From: Clostridia bacterium
GTDB lineage: Bacteria; UBA6262; WVXT01; JAUXBS01
Assembly (NCBI GenBank): GCA_030618495.1
Contig: JAUXDE010000068.1
Coordinates: 1-9,615 of the forward strand
Direction of reading: 5' to 3'
DNA: 9,615 nt
Under the pieces are notes generated by a model that saw only the letters and a program-made list of their open reading frames with translations, made no database searches and was not told the origin of the DNA. Below, in pieces: positions 3-8,553 of this stretch. Made by a program: the position numbers and the translations under genes. How positions within the stretch are numbered: position 1 is the first letter of the stretch; the number at the start of each line of letters is the position of its first letter.

Positions 3-1286
3 AACAATAGTTGTATAACCCTTGCAATAATCAATGTTGACCAGTATAACATTATTAAAAAAACCTGCAATAAAGCAAGAGAAGATGCCATCATGAAATC
101 CATCGCAAAAACCATTAAAAACAATGTTCGCTCTTACTTTAATGTGGGAAGATACAGCAATAACGAATTTGCTATAATACTACCTGATACGGTAAAAGGC
201 AGCGCCATATCCATACTGCGAATCATAAGAAAAAAAGTTTCTCAAACGATTCACAGGGACAGTAAAAACAAAAGACTACAGGTTACACTGAGCATGGGAA
301 TCGCAAACTATCCTGAGAATGCGCTTAATAAGTCCAAACTTACAGAAAGAACAAAGAGCGCCCTTGCCATTGCAAAGAAGGAACACGGTAACCGTGTTAT
401 ACCTTACGTAACTACATCTAAAACATCCATTAAGCTTGCAGTATGTTATTCCGGTCAGTCTCAATTTTATTCCAACGTACTGTTGGGAATGAGGGAAATC
501 ATTGAAGATGCCGGGAACATTGACCTTAAGATATACTACATAGGCCAAACTCCCGATGATTTCAAAAAACCCGGTTCCGGAATAAGAAAAGCCATTGCAG
601 ACAAGCCGGATATTATTGCTATATCAAGCAAAGCTAACATTGGGCCTTATGTAAAGATGGCTAATAAGGCAAAAATACGTGTATTCGGATTTAATCTTCT
701 GGACTTTCAAATGAATCCAAAAGCAAAAATAGACACCTGCGTGGGATATGACTACCGCAAATTAGGACAAAAGGTGGGGGAATACATCGCCAGGATTTTA
801 CGGGGTGAAGGGAAAATCGCTCTTATTGAAGGAATAAAAAATGCAAGTGATTCTATTGACATTAAACGCGGGACAAATGATATACTTAAGAAGTACAAGA
901 AAATTCATGTAGTAGAATCCATTTCCGCAGAATGGAAAAGGAACAAAGCTCAAGTTATTGCCAAAAATATCATGAGAAAACATTCCAATCTTGATGTGAT
1001 ATTCGGGCTGAACGATGAAATGGCCCTTGGTTCTATACAGGCTGTAGTTGACAAAGGAAGGATCGGGAAAACCCTGGTTATAGGATTGGATGGAACAATG
1101 AGCGGGCTTAACGCAATAAAGGATGGAAAATTAGCGGCTACCCTTAACGTTAATCCCATAGCGCTGGGGATTCTCCTGATGCGAACCATATTAAGAAGTA
1201 TGGTAAAAGAGGAAAAAGTACCAGAAATAATAGAATCTCAAACGGTAATGGTAGATCCTGTAAATATAGACATGTATTTAAGATAA
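3..1286 (+). CDS. Degenerate GGDEF domain fused to sugar-binding (Peripla_BP_4-like) domain, 5' partial
   Basis: The frame is open to the left edge, so the true start lies outside the window; 427 residues are visible and the Met codon at 93 is internal. The first part matches a GGDEF domain, with helix and strand patterns around LAIINVD and the late VTLSMGIANYP segment. The signature is SNNEF (nt 156-170) instead of GGDEF. The first metal Asp of the usual DxD motif is Asn, and the RxxD inhibitory site reads RSYF. It is therefore probably neither an active diguanylate cyclase nor a typical c-di-GMP I-site receptor. From about nt 429 it becomes a type 1 periplasmic-binding fold of the ribose/xylose kind, with VGYD, NDEMALGSIQAV and GLDGT motifs at conserved places. 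There is no signal peptide or membrane helix between the domains, so the sugar-binding part is presumably cytoplasmic. Likely role: a ligand sensor or signalling protein (inference). Partner and output are unknown. Confidence 0.8.
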   Translation, partial: NNSCITLAIINVDQYNIIKKTCNKAREDAIMKSIAKTIKNNVRSYFNVGRYSNNEFAIILPDTVKGSAISILRIIRKKVSQTIHRDSKNKRLQVTLSMGIANYPENALNKSKLTERTKSALAIAKKEHGNRVIPYVTTSKTSIKLAVCYSGQSQFYSNVLLGMREIIEDAGNIDLKIYYIGQTPDDFKKPGSGIRKAIADKPDIIAISSKANIGPYVKMANKAKIRVFGFNLLDFQMNPKAKIDTCVGYDYRKLGQKVGEYIARILRGEGKIALIEGIKNASDSIDIKRGTNDILKKYKKIHVVESISAEWKRNKAQVIAKNIMRKHSNLDVIFGLNDEMALGSIQAVVDKGRIGKTLVIGLDGTMSGLNAIKDGKLAATLNVNPIALGILLMRTILRSMVKEEKVPEIIESQTVMVDPVNIDMYLR

Positions 1287-1905: not shown

Positions 1906-2871
1906 ATGCCTGAAGAAAAACCTAAAGAAGTCATAGTAAATAAAAACAATTCAAAAAAAAGGATTGACACTTACCTCAGAGAAATCCTTCTGCACAGGTA
2001 TTCAAGAAACTACATCCAGAACGCAATCAAGCAGGGAAAAGTGCTCATTAACGGCACCCCTGTATCCTCTAACTACCGGATAAAGGAATCTGACAGAATT
2101 CTCATTAATGTTCCCGAAAAAATCAGGTACAGGGCAAAACCCGAAAACATCCCCTTAAACATAATACATGAAGACAACGATATTATCGTTGTGAACAAAT
2201 CCCCGGGCATGGTTGTACACCCCGCCTGCGGGAACTACACGGGGACACTCGTTAATGCCCTGCTTCATCATTATCCCGACTTGCCCGAGCCGGCAAGAAA
2301 GAGCGCCAAAAACCCGCTCGACAGCAGCCGGCTTGGCATAGTCCACCGGCTTGACAAGGACACATCCGGGGTTATTGTTGTTGCCAAAAACCAGCCGGCG
2401 TTGTCATTGGTTTCGGTCCAGTTTGCGAAAAGAACGGTCAAAAAAAGCTACCTTACGATAGTTGAAGGAACTCCAAAAAAAAGAAAAGGGTTTGTGGATG
2501 CCCCCATAGGCAGGAGCAATTTTGACAGGAAAAAAATGGCGGTTAGCCCGGTAAGGGGTAAAAATGCTATAACCGACTATTCCGTAATAAGGAAAATAGG
2601 CAGTTGTTGCCTGGTTGAGGCAAAACCCAGGACAGGCAGGATGCACCAGATACGCATTCATATGGCGCATATCGGCTGCCCCGTGATAGGCGATAAAACT
2701 TACTGGAAGGGAAAACTAAAAATAAAGATACCCAGGCAAATGCTTCATGCCAGCAGTATAACACTGGTTCATCCTTCAGGCGAGCAGGAAATAACCTTCA
2801 CGGCGCCCCTGCCTGAAGATTTTAAGACGGTCATGAAAACATTAGGCAAAGATGGGCAAAAAGAAAAATAA
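1906..2871 (+). CDS. rluD: RluA/RluD-family 23S rRNA pseudouridine synthase
   Basis: Converts specific uridines in large-subunit rRNA to pseudouridine; the RluD group acts on helix 69. An N-terminal S4 RNA-binding domain spans about residues 17-70 (KKRIDTYL, then GKVLING). The catalytic domain follows, with HRLDKDTSG at 147-155, where D150 is the expected catalytic Asp. The late RTGRMHQIRIHMAHIG motif and the IGD segment after it are also present. The 321-residue length fits the S4-containing RluD/RluC group. Paralogues RluA, RluC and RluD are hard to separate by eye, so the exact target uridines are uncertain; the symbol rests on the S4 domain plus placement after lspA. AGGGA at 1886-1890 is a somewhat distant ribosome site. 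The end overlaps the next gene by 20 nt, implying translational coupling. Confidence 0.92.
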   Translation: MPEEKPKEVIVNKNNSKKRIDTYLREILLHRYSRNYIQNAIKQGKVLINGTPVSSNYRIKESDRILINVPEKIRYRAKPENIPLNIIHEDNDIIVVNKSPGMVVHPACGNYTGTLVNALLHHYPDLPEPARKSAKNPLDSSRLGIVHRLDKDTSGVIVVAKNQPALSLVSVQFAKRTVKKSYLTIVEGTPKKRKGFVDAPIGRSNFDRKKMAVSPVRGKNAITDYSVIRKIGSCCLVEAKPRTGRMHQIRIHMAHIGCPVIGDKTYWKGKLKIKIPRQMLHASSITLVHPSGEQEITFTAPLPEDFKTVMKTLGKDGQKEK

Positions 2872-4927
2872 TTTAAAAACAAGTATACCGGTTAAAAACA
2901 GTTTGGCTTCAACGCCGCTGATAAAGTGGCAGCATATTGTTCTTATTATAGTTCTTTGCGTTGTCGTTTATTCAAACAGTCTTAAAAACGGGTTCGTTTA
3001 CGACGACATGGACACTATAGTTGATAACAGCCTGATAAGAAAGACTGAAAACATTGGTTTGTTTTTTATAAATCCGGTTATCACCGATTCCAGTACACCC
3101 GGACTGCAGGAAGGGTACCGGCCGCTTTTAATGGCTTCCTTTGCCTTGAATTATAAGTACGGAAGACTGAATGCATCAGGATACCATCTTGTAAATATTG
3201 TTTTCCATACTGCCAACGCAGTACTTGTATACCTGCTGGTTATGATAATATCATCTTTGGCAATAGCCCCTAACTCTACCCCTGAGCCGGCCAACAACCG
3301 GCGCCTTACAGCTCTTCTGACCTCCCTGGTATTTGCGGCCCACCCGATAAACTCTGAAGCAGTCAACTACGTGTGGCAGAGGTCCGTGCTCATGGCGGCT
3401 TTTTTCTACATGGCAGCCATTATTTTATTTTTATTAAGTGTACGAGAAAGAAAAACGGGGCTGCGCTTTTTATCCCTGGCTTCTTTCATTCTTGCCCTTA
3501 TGAGTAAGGAAATAGCGATAACTCTTCCGCTCGTGGTTATGGTTATTGACTGGTATTTCATAACCGGTTTTAAGAAAAACGCATTTGCCGCCAACATTAA
3601 AAAACTTCATTTGCCTTACATATTTGTTGCCTCAGCTTATTTCCTTGTCAGGTTCTTAGCCCACGGAGCCATCAAGGAATTCAGTTCGCCCGGCGGGAAG
3701 GAAAGCGTTTATAATTATTTCATAACACAAACCAGGGTGATTGTAAAATATATCGGCCTGACTATATTTCCCGGTGGACTTTCTTCCGAACACTATGTCT
3801 CCGTATCAAAGACCGCCGCGGACCCCCGCGTGTGGCTGTCCCTTGCCGTTATAATGCTCATCGCGCTGGCTGCCTGGCGGCTTAGAAATCACTCAAGAAC
3901 AGCTTCGTTTTTCGTAATATGGTTCTTCGTAACCCTGCTCCCGACATCAAGTATACTCCCCCTGAGGATAATAATGAACGAACACAGGGTTTACCTGCCA
4001 GGGGTGGGTCTTTTTGCGGCGGTATTGTTTTTAATTTTCAGGTTTACGTCCGATAAAGTTCGCCGGAGGGTACTGCCCGCCATCATTGCATCAATAATTA
4101 TAATGTTTTCTACATTAACCCGCGGAAGGAATAATACCTGGAAGGATGACTCCACACTTTGGACGGACGTGATAAAAACAAACAGTACATCCTCAAAAGC
4201 GTACAACAACAGGGGTATATTCTATGCAGGCAAAAACCTTCATGACAGGGCTATAGCCGATTTTAACAGGGCTCTTCAGCTTAACCCTGAATCTCAAAGG
4301 GCATACAATAACCGCGGCGCCGCGTACTTGAAGATGGGAGAGTACGACAAGGCAATTGCGGATTTCAGGAAAACCATAGAACTTGAGCCGAAATACGTTG
4401 GAGCCCGCAAGAACATGGAAACTGCGCTGGAGAATAAAAAACAACATGAAAAAATGGCTGAATTAGATAAGGCGATAAATACTACCCCTAATGACCCTGA
4501 CGTGTATTTTAACCGGGCAATTTACCGCAGGGATAGGGGGCTTTTTGACGAAGCGCTGTCTGATTTTGGTAAATCAATTGAACTTGCCCCTGATAATCCA
4601 AAAACTTATATAAGCAGGGGGACAATTTATGGAATTAAAAAACTTTACAATGAGGCCATAGAGGATTTCAACAAAGCAATAGAATTGGATCCGGGAAATT
4701 ACAGCGCATGGGTAAACAGGGGAGTTGCATTATGGAAAAGCGGGCTTTTTGAGAAAGCAATATCCGATTTAACCGGCGCTATAAATATAAACCCTGAATT
4801 GAGCCAGGCATATCATATCAGGAGCATCCTATACGGACAAACAAACAGGATGGAATTATCCGCCAGGGATGAAGAAAAAGTAAAATCACTACGAAACTCC
4901 AAAAATAACCGCCACGGAAAAAAATAA
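2852..4927 (+). CDS. Polytopic TMTC-like (DUF1736-type, GT-C fold) membrane protein with C-terminal TPR repeats
   Basis: The N-terminal 430 residues are a multi-spanning membrane domain and the rest is a TPR array. The first helix (about 28-42) is followed by NGFVYDD (46-52), which resembles the acidic first-loop motif of GT-C glycosyltransferases. Further family signatures are YRPLLMASFALNY (89-101), GYHLVNIVFHTANAVLVYLL (110-129), HPINSEAVNYVWQR (164-177), SKE (218-220), NEHRVYLP (376-383) and NTWKDDSTLW (428-437). About six TPR units run from 448 to 685, with the unit at 516-549 degenerate. The architecture matches bacterial relatives of the TMTC O-mannosyltransferases. A role in lipid-linked sugar transfer to exported proteins is inference; no substrate can be read from the sequence. 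The start at 2852 lies inside the rluD-like gene, and no terminator is visible after the stop. Confidence 0.85.
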   Translation: MGKKKNNLKTSIPVKNSLASTPLIKWQHIVLIIVLCVVVYSNSLKNGFVYDDMDTIVDNSLIRKTENIGLFFINPVITDSSTPGLQEGYRPLLMASFALNYKYGRLNASGYHLVNIVFHTANAVLVYLLVMIISSLAIAPNSTPEPANNRRLTALLTSLVFAAHPINSEAVNYVWQRSVLMAAFFYMAAIILFLLSVRERKTGLRFLSLASFILALMSKEIAITLPLVVMVIDWYFITGFKKNAFAANIKKLHLPYIFVASAYFLVRFLAHGAIKEFSSPGGKESVYNYFITQTRVIVKYIGLTIFPGGLSSEHYVSVSKTAADPRVWLSLAVIMLIALAAWRLRNHSRTASFFVIWFFVTLLPTSSILPLRIIMNEHRVYLPGVGLFAAVLFLIFRFTSDKVRRRVLPAIIASIIIMFSTLTRGRNNTWKDDSTLWTDVIKTNSTSSKAYNNRGIFYAGKNLHDRAIADFNRALQLNPESQRAYNNRGAAYLKMGEYDKAIADFRKTIELEPKYVGARKNMETALENKKQHEKMAELDKAINTTPNDPDVYFNRAIYRRDRGLFDEALSDFGKSIELAPDNPKTYISRGTIYGIKKLYNEAIEDFNKAIELDPGNYSAWVNRGVALWKSGLFEKAISDLTGAININPELSQAYHIRSILYGQTNRMELSARDEEKVKSLRNSKNNRHGKK

Positions 4928-5258: not shown

Positions 5259-7829
5259 ATGATGAAAGTTAATGTAAGGATAGGTTTATTCACAATGCTG
5301 TTGTTGTTCTCGAGCGGTGCTAAAATGGCATTTTCTTATACCGCTCCAGACAAACCCCCCTTTAACCTTGGATGGGTTCCTCTTGGCGGTATGGGAGTAG
5401 GGCAGATAGAGATTAACGGTGCCGGAAAATTTACCGGGATTGCCTGCAGTGAAAGGGATTCCAGTAAATGGCCTACCAATAAAACTGTGTGTCCATTTAT
5501 ATTATTCACCAGTAAAAACGACTCAATTTATAAAACTGTACTACAGGAACGCGCTGTGGACATTGACTATGTAGGGTTCTATCCAAAAGCAACTCTGACA
5601 TACACTAAACCAGCCATGCCTGTTATTCTTGTTCTCAAGGCGTTCTCTCCTATGATACCGGGTGATGATAAAAACTGTTCTCTGCCTCTTGCAATGTTTG
5701 AATTCACAATCACCAATAATCAAGAGGTAAACGTGGATGCCGCTCTCGCCTTTAATTGGAATACCCGATGGACCACGGCAGGGAAAAGCACCCAGGCTGA
5801 AATTCTTGATGACTCCAACAATAAAAAAGGATTAAATTTTAACTTTAAAGGCGGCAGTCATACGACTATGGTTATAAATGACGGATCTGCAACAACAAGC
5901 TATGGAGCAAAAAAATCAGATTTTACTACAGACGGAATATTAGGGAATATTTTCAAGGGAAACTCTTGTATGCTTGCTTCAAAAATTACACTTAGGCCCG
6001 GCGAGTCCAGAAAGATTTGTTTTGTCCTGGCCTGGCACAAAGCTGAAATGATTTTGGACGGTCAGGCTGAGGGCTTCAGGGAGAACAAATATGTATCAAG
6101 TTTAGCAAAAGATGAGGTTTTAAGTGGACGGTCTGTGGGTTTCAGGCACACTGCGGCACCTTATAATTTTACTACAGCACAGCTTATTGCTGAATATGGT
6201 TATTCATATTTTTCAACCCTTCTTGCTAAGGTTGAGGCCTGGCACCAGAAAATTTTCGATTCCAATTTCCCTGAATGGTATCAGGATATGCTGATAAACT
6301 CACTCTATATTCTATCACATAATGCCATATGGGCAGAAGACAACAGGTTCACTGTGATGGAAGAGGCTGTAGACGGACCTATGTGCGGAACGATAGACCA
6401 GAGGTATCATTGTGGTATAGGAACCATATTCTTTTCCCCTGAGGCTGATTATGGCGAGATGAAATTATGTGCGGATAGCCTGATTTCCAATACCCTTGTC
6501 ACACCAAACGTATACGGTGCAGTTCCTCATGATTTTGGAGTAAACTGTATAAACATGCCCAACCCTGGTACCGGTTGTGGATGTAATTATCCAATCGGGG
6601 GGGATAGCGGGGGAGCTTTAGTACTGCATTCATTAAGGAATTATATGTGGACAGGCGACCTCTCCAAACTAAAGGTTAACTATCCCGGAATAAAAGATAC
6701 AATTAAATTCATGAGAAATAATGACATCGACACAAGAAAAGGCGATTATCTGGTTGATGACCACGGGGCAACCAATACTTATGATGTTGGAGGACTTTGG
6801 GGTTCAAGTGCGTATTCCGCTGAAATACAACTTGCTAGTTATAAAGCCGGTATGTACATGGCTGCATTATTTAATGAAACAACTTGGTATAATACTTTAA
6901 ATAACTGGTATAAACAGGGTTCAGAAACTTTCGAGAAGACGGTTGTTGATGGAGGTCTCTGGGAACCAAATAACGGATATTACATAAACTGGATTAGCGA
7001 TACAGGAAACAACATGACTTGTATTACAGGTATGTTAAGCGGTACGATAATGGCTGATATGCTCTATCTTGGGAAAATACATGACCAGTCAAGAATTAAC
7101 CAGGCAATAGACAGAATTTATAAAACAAATTTGGCTAATAGGGGTATATATAATGGCAGAGTACCTGAAACTGGTCAGTTTTGGCCTCCTTCAGAATGCT
7201 CATGTCCTTCCTCAGACAACGAACAATGGCCCGGTTACAATATAGCCCAGTTCAGCGCTTATGCGGCTTCCAATGACAAAATCGACATGGCGCTGGAAGT
7301 TGCATACAGGACTTGGAAGGGTTTATTTAAAGATTACCCAAGGGTATGGGATTGGCCCTGCAAATCGTTTGGCGATAATGGTGAAGGACAGGGGTGGGGC
7401 AATCATGCATACATGAATTCTCCTGGATGTTGGAATTTTTATTACAACATGACCGGACTTTGCATGGACAAAAATGCTAAAAAGTTCTGGTTGGCGCCAC
7501 GTTTGCCTCTGAATACAACCTACATGTCAAACAATACTCTGATAGCCCCAATATTCCTTGGGTACACAACGGGGATGTTTGAATACAGGCAGTATCAGGA
7601 AAACTACGAGCAAAAACTTTCAATCACAATGGACAGCCCAGTAGAAGTTGAAAAATTTTACATAAAATTAACTACCGGCCCGAACCGGATGAACATTAAA
7701 GTAGTACAAAACGGTAAAAACATTATTCCTGTTAAAGTAAGCACTGTTGATAATAATTTAATTGAGTGTACGTTTGAACCTAATATTTATTTATCAACCA
7801 CGCCCATAATAATATATAGCGGCTTATAA
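5259..7829 (+). CDS. Secreted GH116-family (GBA2-like) glycoside hydrolase
   Basis: Residues 1-26 look like a Sec signal peptide (hydrophobic core 9-18, AFS before Y27), so the enzyme is exported. The GBA2-type N-terminal beta domain begins with PLGGMGVGQIEI (41-52) and includes AFSPMIPGDDK (128-138). The alpha-barrel catalytic domain runs from about 335 to 775. By remembered alignment to human GBA2, the nucleophile should be E368 (in FTVMEE) and the acid/base D509 (in TNTYDVGG); PHDFG (423-427) is also conserved. GH116 enzymes are retaining beta-glucosidases, beta-xylosidases or glucosylceramidases; the substrate here cannot be told. The protein has 17 Cys, mostly after the signal peptide, and a beta-rich tail (785-856). 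AAGGAG (5248-5253) serves ATG 5259 or, at better spacing, ATG 5262. No sugar transporter or regulator is adjacent, which suggests an isolated, possibly acquired gene. Confidence 0.88.
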   Translation: MMKVNVRIGLFTMLLLFSSGAKMAFSYTAPDKPPFNLGWVPLGGMGVGQIEINGAGKFTGIACSERDSSKWPTNKTVCPFILFTSKNDSIYKTVLQERAVDIDYVGFYPKATLTYTKPAMPVILVLKAFSPMIPGDDKNCSLPLAMFEFTITNNQEVNVDAALAFNWNTRWTTAGKSTQAEILDDSNNKKGLNFNFKGGSHTTMVINDGSATTSYGAKKSDFTTDGILGNIFKGNSCMLASKITLRPGESRKICFVLAWHKAEMILDGQAEGFRENKYVSSLAKDEVLSGRSVGFRHTAAPYNFTTAQLIAEYGYSYFSTLLAKVEAWHQKIFDSNFPEWYQDMLINSLYILSHNAIWAEDNRFTVMEEAVDGPMCGTIDQRYHCGIGTIFFSPEADYGEMKLCADSLISNTLVTPNVYGAVPHDFGVNCINMPNPGTGCGCNYPIGGDSGGALVLHSLRNYMWTGDLSKLKVNYPGIKDTIKFMRNNDIDTRKGDYLVDDHGATNTYDVGGLWGSSAYSAEIQLASYKAGMYMAALFNETTWYNTLNNWYKQGSETFEKTVVDGGLWEPNNGYYINWISDTGNNMTCITGMLSGTIMADMLYLGKIHDQSRINQAIDRIYKTNLANRGIYNGRVPETGQFWPPSECSCPSSDNEQWPGYNIAQFSAYAASNDKIDMALEVAYRTWKGLFKDYPRVWDWPCKSFGDNGEGQGWGNHAYMNSPGCWNFYYNMTGLCMDKNAKKFWLAPRLPLNTTYMSNNTLIAPIFLGYTTGMFEYRQYQENYEQKLSITMDSPVEVEKFYIKLTTGPNRMNIKVVQNGKNIIPVKVSTVDNNLIECTFEPNIYLSTTPIIIYSGL

Positions 7830-8262: not shown

Positions 8263-8553
8263 ATGGCTATGGATCTAATAAATATAGGGTTTAACAATTT
8301 GGTTGTAGCTCAGCGTATAGTCGCGCTGGTTTCGCCTGATTCAGCGCCTATAAAACGTCTTGAAAAAACAGCAAGAGAAAACGGCATTCTTATTAATGCC
8401 GCATGCGGCCGTAAGACCCGTTCCGTGATAATAACTGACAACAACCATGTTATTCTATCTGCATTACAGCCCGAGACAATTGCTGACAGGTTTCCCAATA
8501 ATCTTAAGAAAAATCATTCGCCGCGTAAAAGGAATTTTACGAAAAACAAATAA
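8263..8553 (+). CDS. remA: RemA/DUF370-family regulatory protein
   Basis: Small cytoplasmic DNA-binding regulator; in Bacillus subtilis RemA activates biofilm-matrix and osmoprotection genes, while its role elsewhere is mostly unknown. The family core is very well kept: [20 protein letters not shown] (5-24), PDSAPIKRL (25-33), [11 protein letters not shown] (49-59) and [16 protein letters not shown] (62-77). A basic tail of about 18 residues ([15 protein letters not shown]) extends past the usual end, so at 96 residues it is slightly long. Start 8263 gives MAMDLIN; the in-frame ATG at 8269 (MDLIN) matches the usual family N-terminus equally well. Neither has a Shine-Dalgarno site, because the promoter lies directly upstream. 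It heads the conserved order remA-gmk-rpoZ-coaBC; gmk begins 15 nt after its stop. Confidence 0.93.

Follow-up and report, generated by a model that had tools for sequence, protein, structure and literature searches.

According to a 2022 review, PBP-clan domains are common in c-di-GMP proteins, where a single family of the clan had been studied by then; the review describes these domains as periplasmic (PMC8846402). For example, the sensor cyclases and phosphodiesterases RmcA (with SBP_bac_3) and CdgH (with PBPb) carry a PBP fold and a GGDEF domain on one chain and are presumed to sense small molecules. Their PBP domains are described as periplasmic (PMC8846402), and that of CdgH lies at the N-terminus (PMC5431781). 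The LacI/GalR repressors use a sugar-binding-protein fold in the cytosol, with one-component logic. CdgI, CsrD and FimX retain a GGDEF fold that has lost its catalytic motif; CdgI still has its I-site and binds c-di-GMP (PMC5635695), and CsrD and FimX have EAL domains.

The protein described here resembles each of these systems in part. Like RmcA and CdgH, it joins a PBP fold to a GGDEF domain, but the fold is of the Peripla_BP_4 family and C-terminal to the GGDEF domain, and there is no membrane segment. An earlier note on this sequence had remarked that this order is the reverse of the common one, which fits the review's picture of periplasmic PBP sensors (PMC8846402), the description with which it was compared. 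With LacI/GalR repressors the family shares an apparently cytosolic sugar-binding-protein fold, one-component logic and, for one copy, a place in a sugar cluster (lacZ-galT-galE-X-galK). Unlike them, it has no helix-turn-helix, carrying instead a GGDEF domain that is dead or alive, and within Pfam it is nearest to Peripla_BP_4 rather than to the LacI-type Peripla_BP_3. Compared with CdgI, CsrD and FimX, it has also lost the I-site, and its GGDEF domain is partnered by a sugar-binding fold. That fold is like the ribose- and allose-binding proteins (2ioy, 1rpj), as is part of the ligand cleft, but it has no export signal, is fused to a GGDEF domain and has several ligand contacts exchanged. PBP-clan domains in c-di-GMP proteins were known. 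The open-access literature searched held no description of a cytosolic GGDEF-sugar-domain fusion, nor of a soluble GGDEF protein with a C-terminal ribose-binding-type domain and parallel dead versions, which is not proof of absence.

The fusion gene

The window, a stretch of 9,615 nt, is the entire contig G000:C143 of a genome of 1.69 Mb in 179 contigs; sequence upstream of it is absent from the assembly. The gene at its start encodes a degenerate GGDEF domain and, behind it on the same chain, a ribose-binding-type domain; no membrane helix separates the two.

3..1286, + strand: fusion gene, degenerate GGDEF and Peripla_BP_4; open for 427 codons, truncated at its 5' end by the edge of the contig
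3..401, + strand: degenerate GGDEF domain, residues 1-133; PF00990 65.2 bits, model elements E5-12 ... E131-134
426..1271, + strand: ribose-binding-protein-like (Peripla_BP_4) domain, residues 142-423; from Pfam, model and structure match, presumably cytoplasmic

Alignment to the complete paralogue C86 indicates that 41 N-terminal residues are missing. The Pfam match to GGDEF (residues 2-131; cut-off 23.8 bits) covers profile positions 30-161, the domain lacking its beginning; complete short relatives score 52-73 bits across the full domain. Peripla_BP_4 (PF13407) matches residues 150-398 with 140.3 bits, well over the cut-off, and the protein belongs to this family by both sequence and fold. 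The earlier note had proposed a structure prediction, and AlphaFold, run with a six-sequence alignment, gives two folded domains (mean pLDDT 85.7, pTM 0.76), the second being a sugar-binding fold; the alignment is shallow, making the relative placement of the domains unreliable. The fusion is not a chance joining, because it recurs with 54-55% identity in the same genome and in a sister species. A family fragment at another contig edge, C30, was considered as the missing start of the window gene and rejected: the contig ends share no sequence, and the C30 protein is an intact copy resembling C49. An Rfam search across the window gave no match. Promoter matches in the window were not above chance, and its sole terminator-like site lies on the opposite strand, inside lspA.

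On which side of the membrane does the second domain lie? The highest 19-residue hydropathy in the window protein is 1.44, compared with 3.05 for LspA from the same window, indicating that there is no membrane helix, as the earlier note had claimed. Complete relatives (466-468 aa) begin at ATG, in the sister-species copy with an aggagg site just upstream, and by hydropathy they have neither a signal peptide nor a membrane helix. An exported, outward-facing domain, as in periplasmic sensors, might be expected because the close structural relatives are all exported transport proteins. However, the complete relatives lack the export signal of Peripla_BP_4 transport proteins (the window copy's own N-terminus lies off the contig), and the GGDEF domain precedes the sugar domain on the same chain. 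Export is contradicted by these relatives and scarcely credible, and the earlier proposal of a soluble sensor in the cytoplasm whose GGDEF domain is dead is supported.

A GGDEF domain without its catalytic residues

The substitutions that would inactivate the GGDEF domain, and the stretch that is best conserved despite them, are as follows.

33..35, + strand: Asn11, replacing the first metal Asp (PleD Asp327); residue table
129..140, + strand: RSYF (residues 43-46), replacing the RxxD inhibitory site; R[SA]YF in 3/3 dead-clade members
156..170, + strand: SNNEF (residues 52-56), replacing GG(D/E)EF; residue table
279..401, + strand: C-terminal part, VTLS...GNRV, best-conserved stretch of the dead domain; 28/41 columns identical in three dead-clade members

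All three motif changes had been read correctly in the earlier note. In what we take to be PleD numbering, the window copy has Asn for both Asp327 and Glu370, Asn for Lys332, Lys for Asn335 and Gly for Arg446. It therefore lacks the catalytic GG(D/E)EF motif, both metal ligands and the full set of GTP contacts, and the RxxD I-site is absent from it and from the other two dead-clade copies. Judged by these residues, the GGDEF fold of the window protein is predicted to be unable to make c-di-GMP.

Such a domain might still bind GTP or another nucleotide, so that the protein would integrate sugar and nucleotide signals. The fold is intact by prediction, the equivalents of Asp344 and Lys442 remain in the window copy, and the degenerate GGDEF domain of FimX responds to GTP (PMC8846402). 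Against this, C86 and C163 have lost Asp344 as well, and the window copy has neither metal ligand nor the counterparts of Lys332, Asn335 and Arg446, making nucleotide binding improbable. Since only Asp344 and Lys442 are left of these positions, a scaffold or interaction role appears likelier than GTP binding. The earlier suggestion of a structural or non-c-di-GMP nucleotide-binding module is thus weakened in its second part.

The sugar-binding domain and its cleft

In a structure search, the second domain matched sugar-binding proteins at Z 26.7-30.5, the best being 4kq9 (Z 30.5, 2.2 A over 283 residues); 2ioy matched at Z 28.6, with 2.9 A over 271 residues. The match lists are filled by the sugar domain, and these Z scores speak for the second domain. 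The cleft was aligned with residues that we take to be the ligand contacts of ribose-binding protein.

465..470, + strand: Phe155-Tyr156, aligned with cleft residues Phe15/Phe16 of ribose-binding protein; Tyr156 invariant in the family
933..935, + strand: Trp311, at the aligned position of Phe164, the stacking aromatic in ribose-binding protein; unchanged throughout the family
1089..1091, + strand: Asp363, at the aligned position of Asp215, a ligand contact in ribose-binding protein; unchanged throughout the family

In addition, Asn337 is the kept equivalent of Asn190 in the alignment. Several ribose-specific contacts are changed: Asp89 to Asn, Arg141 to Ile and Gln235 to Val, and the Arg90 position is changed too. 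A ligand of sugar size is likely from this pattern, and ribose itself is not likely. Because several ribose-specific contacts are changed, the ligand may be something other than a simple sugar. AI-2 is possible, by analogy, because LsrB carries the same domain (PMC12268683).

Live and dead copies

A search for homologues with the same fusion, as proposed in the earlier note, uncovered a family with both live and dead members. Besides the window gene, the window genome carries C86 (468 aa), C49 (605 aa) and two contig-edge fragments, C27 (C-terminal, dead-clade-like) and C30 (N-terminal, C49-like). The sister species, G001, has C163, C250, C120, C223 and a partial C270, so that both genomes of the window genus carry five or more copies. 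All Peripla_BP_4 matches in these two genomes belong to the family. Two members of a second small phylum, G255 and G387, have one intact copy each. Its members in this analysis come from four draft genomes: among 386 sampled genomes the family occurs only in the two of the window genus and G255, and a relative, G387, also has it. It was not found in four genomes of the same order, and two further genome samples, mostly overlapping the 386, held no additional members. Contig C35 of the window genome has, within the contig, a 76-codon C-terminal remnant (L048:3078-3293) that is probably a true pseudogene fragment.

Long members (C49, C120, C223, G255 and G387) have about 130-195 residues ahead of the GGDEF domain. 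This extension is tentatively GAF-like, from a weak match in C223 only (25.1 bits, below the cut-off of 28.6). They keep the 15 checked catalytic, GTP-contact and I-site positions if two exchanges are treated as conservative: C49 has Asp at the Glu370 position, and C120, G255 and G387 have Ile instead of the last Phe; C30 keeps those within its sequenced part. Short members (the window gene, C86, C163 and C250) have lost the metal ligands, although C250 has Asp at the second position, and also lack the Lys332, Asn335 and Arg446 equivalents; the I-site Asp is lost except in C250. Hence complete copies without the extension are all dead and complete copies with it all look alive; the window copy, whose own start is missing, is classed as short via its nearest relatives. 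Three points go beyond the earlier note: the live paralogues, the fact that no complete dead copy has a GAF-like extension, and the placement of one copy within lacZ-galT-galE-X-galK.

How often was catalysis lost? In a maximum-likelihood tree, the window gene, C86 and C163 group together (100/100) and C250 falls elsewhere, requiring a minimum of two live/dead changes. In the sugar-domain tree, the live G255/G387 pair is the nearest sister of the window clade (81/97). A single origin of the four dead copies was considered and is disfavoured on the sugar-domain tree (AU p 0.015), to be read with caution given that C250 is a long branch. On these trees, catalytic loss arose separately at least twice.

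Selection was estimated for the closest dead pair. Nei-Gojobori counts for C86 and C163 put dN/dS at 0.19 for the dead GGDEF domain and at 0.15 for the sugar domain, with dS about 1; synonymous sites are saturated for the window gene, and the figures hold for the C86/C163 pair. Within the dead clade, the active-site part is relaxed, with 10/40 columns identical (25%) compared with 68% in the C-terminal part, whereas three live copies have 19/40 identical in the active-site part. The difference between the C-terminal part and the rest of the domain has p 4e-5 in the dead clade and p 0.13 in the live copies, these column-identity figures resting on three sequences each. This is the pattern expected if the fold were kept for contact rather than catalysis.

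The earlier note had allowed that homologues with intact GGDEF motifs could mark this copy as merely decaying. Such homologues exist, and the C35 remnant looks truly decayed, as would be expected if the window gene were a functionless duplicate of an intact diguanylate cyclase. Yet the window gene has no stop in its 427 codons, the dead form is common to two species and has at least two origins, and the dead clade has invariants of its own, such as the Phe of R[SA]YF. Because purifying selection acts on the closest dead pair (dN/dS 0.19), the dead domain is, by its sequence, a maintained pseudoenzyme rather than a product of decay, and a functionless duplicate is highly improbable.

Gene neighbourhoods and signaling background

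In the sister species, C250 lies in a one-strand cluster with short gaps, lacZ-galT-galE-C250-galK: upstream of it are the gene for a LacZ-type beta-galactosidase, galT and galE, and downstream of it is galK. It sits where a galactose-responsive regulator would be expected. By eye, this cluster (L057:187-8541) is followed by rpoB and rpoC. Other copies also have sugar-related neighbors. For example, C223 and C30 adjoin a ROK sugar kinase gene, with a sodium/solute symporter also near C30; downstream of C49 are a GH2-like gene and nagB. The G255 and G387 copies adjoin a zinc alcohol-dehydrogenase-type gene and a CstA carbon-starvation transporter. The window copy is followed by lspA and rluD, with no sugar gene directly adjacent, and C86 is located after murG, so some family copies have no sugar neighbor. 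Context and cleft together leave a putative sensor role of the fusion protein well supported.

The LacI head (PF00356) was found neither in the window protein nor in six genomes of the phylum, while 9/14 control genomes were positive. The window genome has a c-di-GMP system with other GGDEF proteins, intact ones among them, 8 PilZ and 2 HD_5 matches, and no EAL match. GGDEF proteins of another type in this genome (L016, L012, L013) carry GGDDF as their motif; inspection by eye suggests response-regulator receivers in two and HEAT-like repeats behind one.

Proposed function

The preferred reading, which stands about an even chance of being right, is that the window protein is a cytosolic one-component sugar sensor working through a pseudo-diguanylate cyclase, most likely by pairing with intact paralogues. 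We infer that the ligand is a sugar, that sensing takes place in the cytoplasm and that the output is GGDEF-GGDEF contact. The C-terminal, LacI-core-like domain would close on an intracellular sugar or sugar-like metabolite. Binding would alter how the dead GGDEF domain pairs, such that the state of the ligand is reported by protein contact. Cyclase activity requires GGDEF dimerisation. Two-hybrid assays show degenerate GGDEF domains of E. coli binding to further GGDEF domains (PMC5635695). For these two reasons, the intact GGDEF-sugar-domain paralogues of the same cell would be the first-candidate partners, their cyclase activity being held back or released. The case for heterodimerisation is thus made from paralogy and the E. 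coli precedent.

The main rival of paralogue pairing keeps the same cytosolic sugar sensor but has the dead GGDEF domain act on targets other than c-di-GMP enzymes. As a plain scaffold for dimerisation or docking, it would control a transcription factor, a sugar enzyme or an RNA, and the protein would in effect be a LacI-type regulator that had swapped its DNA-binding head for a protein-binding one. In favor of this, the dead copy in the galactose cluster occupies the place of an expected sugar-responsive repressor, and no LacI head was found in the six genomes of the phylum. However, the neighbourhood shows no partner, and intact paralogues of the same layout make a c-di-GMP link the simpler assumption. 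Docking on another regulator or enzyme is possible but on the unlikely side.

Pairing with intact paralogues could be part of a broader scheme. A lineage without LacI-type repressors may have built intracellular sugar sensing on GGDEF-sugar-domain fusions and repeatedly made pseudo-cyclases, devoid of both the GAF-like domain and the active site, that replace a GalR/LacI regulator and pair ligand-dependently with live cyclases, each sugar tuning c-di-GMP via a live/dead pair. This scheme is speculative, and we doubt that it holds as a whole.

What are the implications of such a family? First, a PBP-clan domain at work in the cytosol, associated with galactose and amino-sugar genes and existing as live and dead paralogues, would directly link the intracellular sugar state to c-di-GMP signaling. 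Second, the GAF-like domain and the active site are repeatedly missing together, which is a natural experiment in turning a second-messenger enzyme into a pseudoenzyme. Third, the galactose-cluster copy, C250, suggests an obvious first candidate ligand.

Several observations concern other genes and the genomes themselves. A gene for a GH116-type glycoside hydrolase, with a signal peptide by eye, lies in the window 4 kb downstream of the fusion gene (5259-7829). TMTC-like membrane proteins with TPR repeats are encoded both in the window (2852-4927) and near C163 in the sister species (L042:3872-5437). A RemA-like gene (8263-8553; PF04025, 116 bits) is directly ahead of guanylate kinase in the window. 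Finally, the sister-species genome G001 (CSMAG_2805) was deposited as 'Clostridia bacterium' yet is placed in the six-genome phylum (L054-L058), so its NCBI label is probably wrong.
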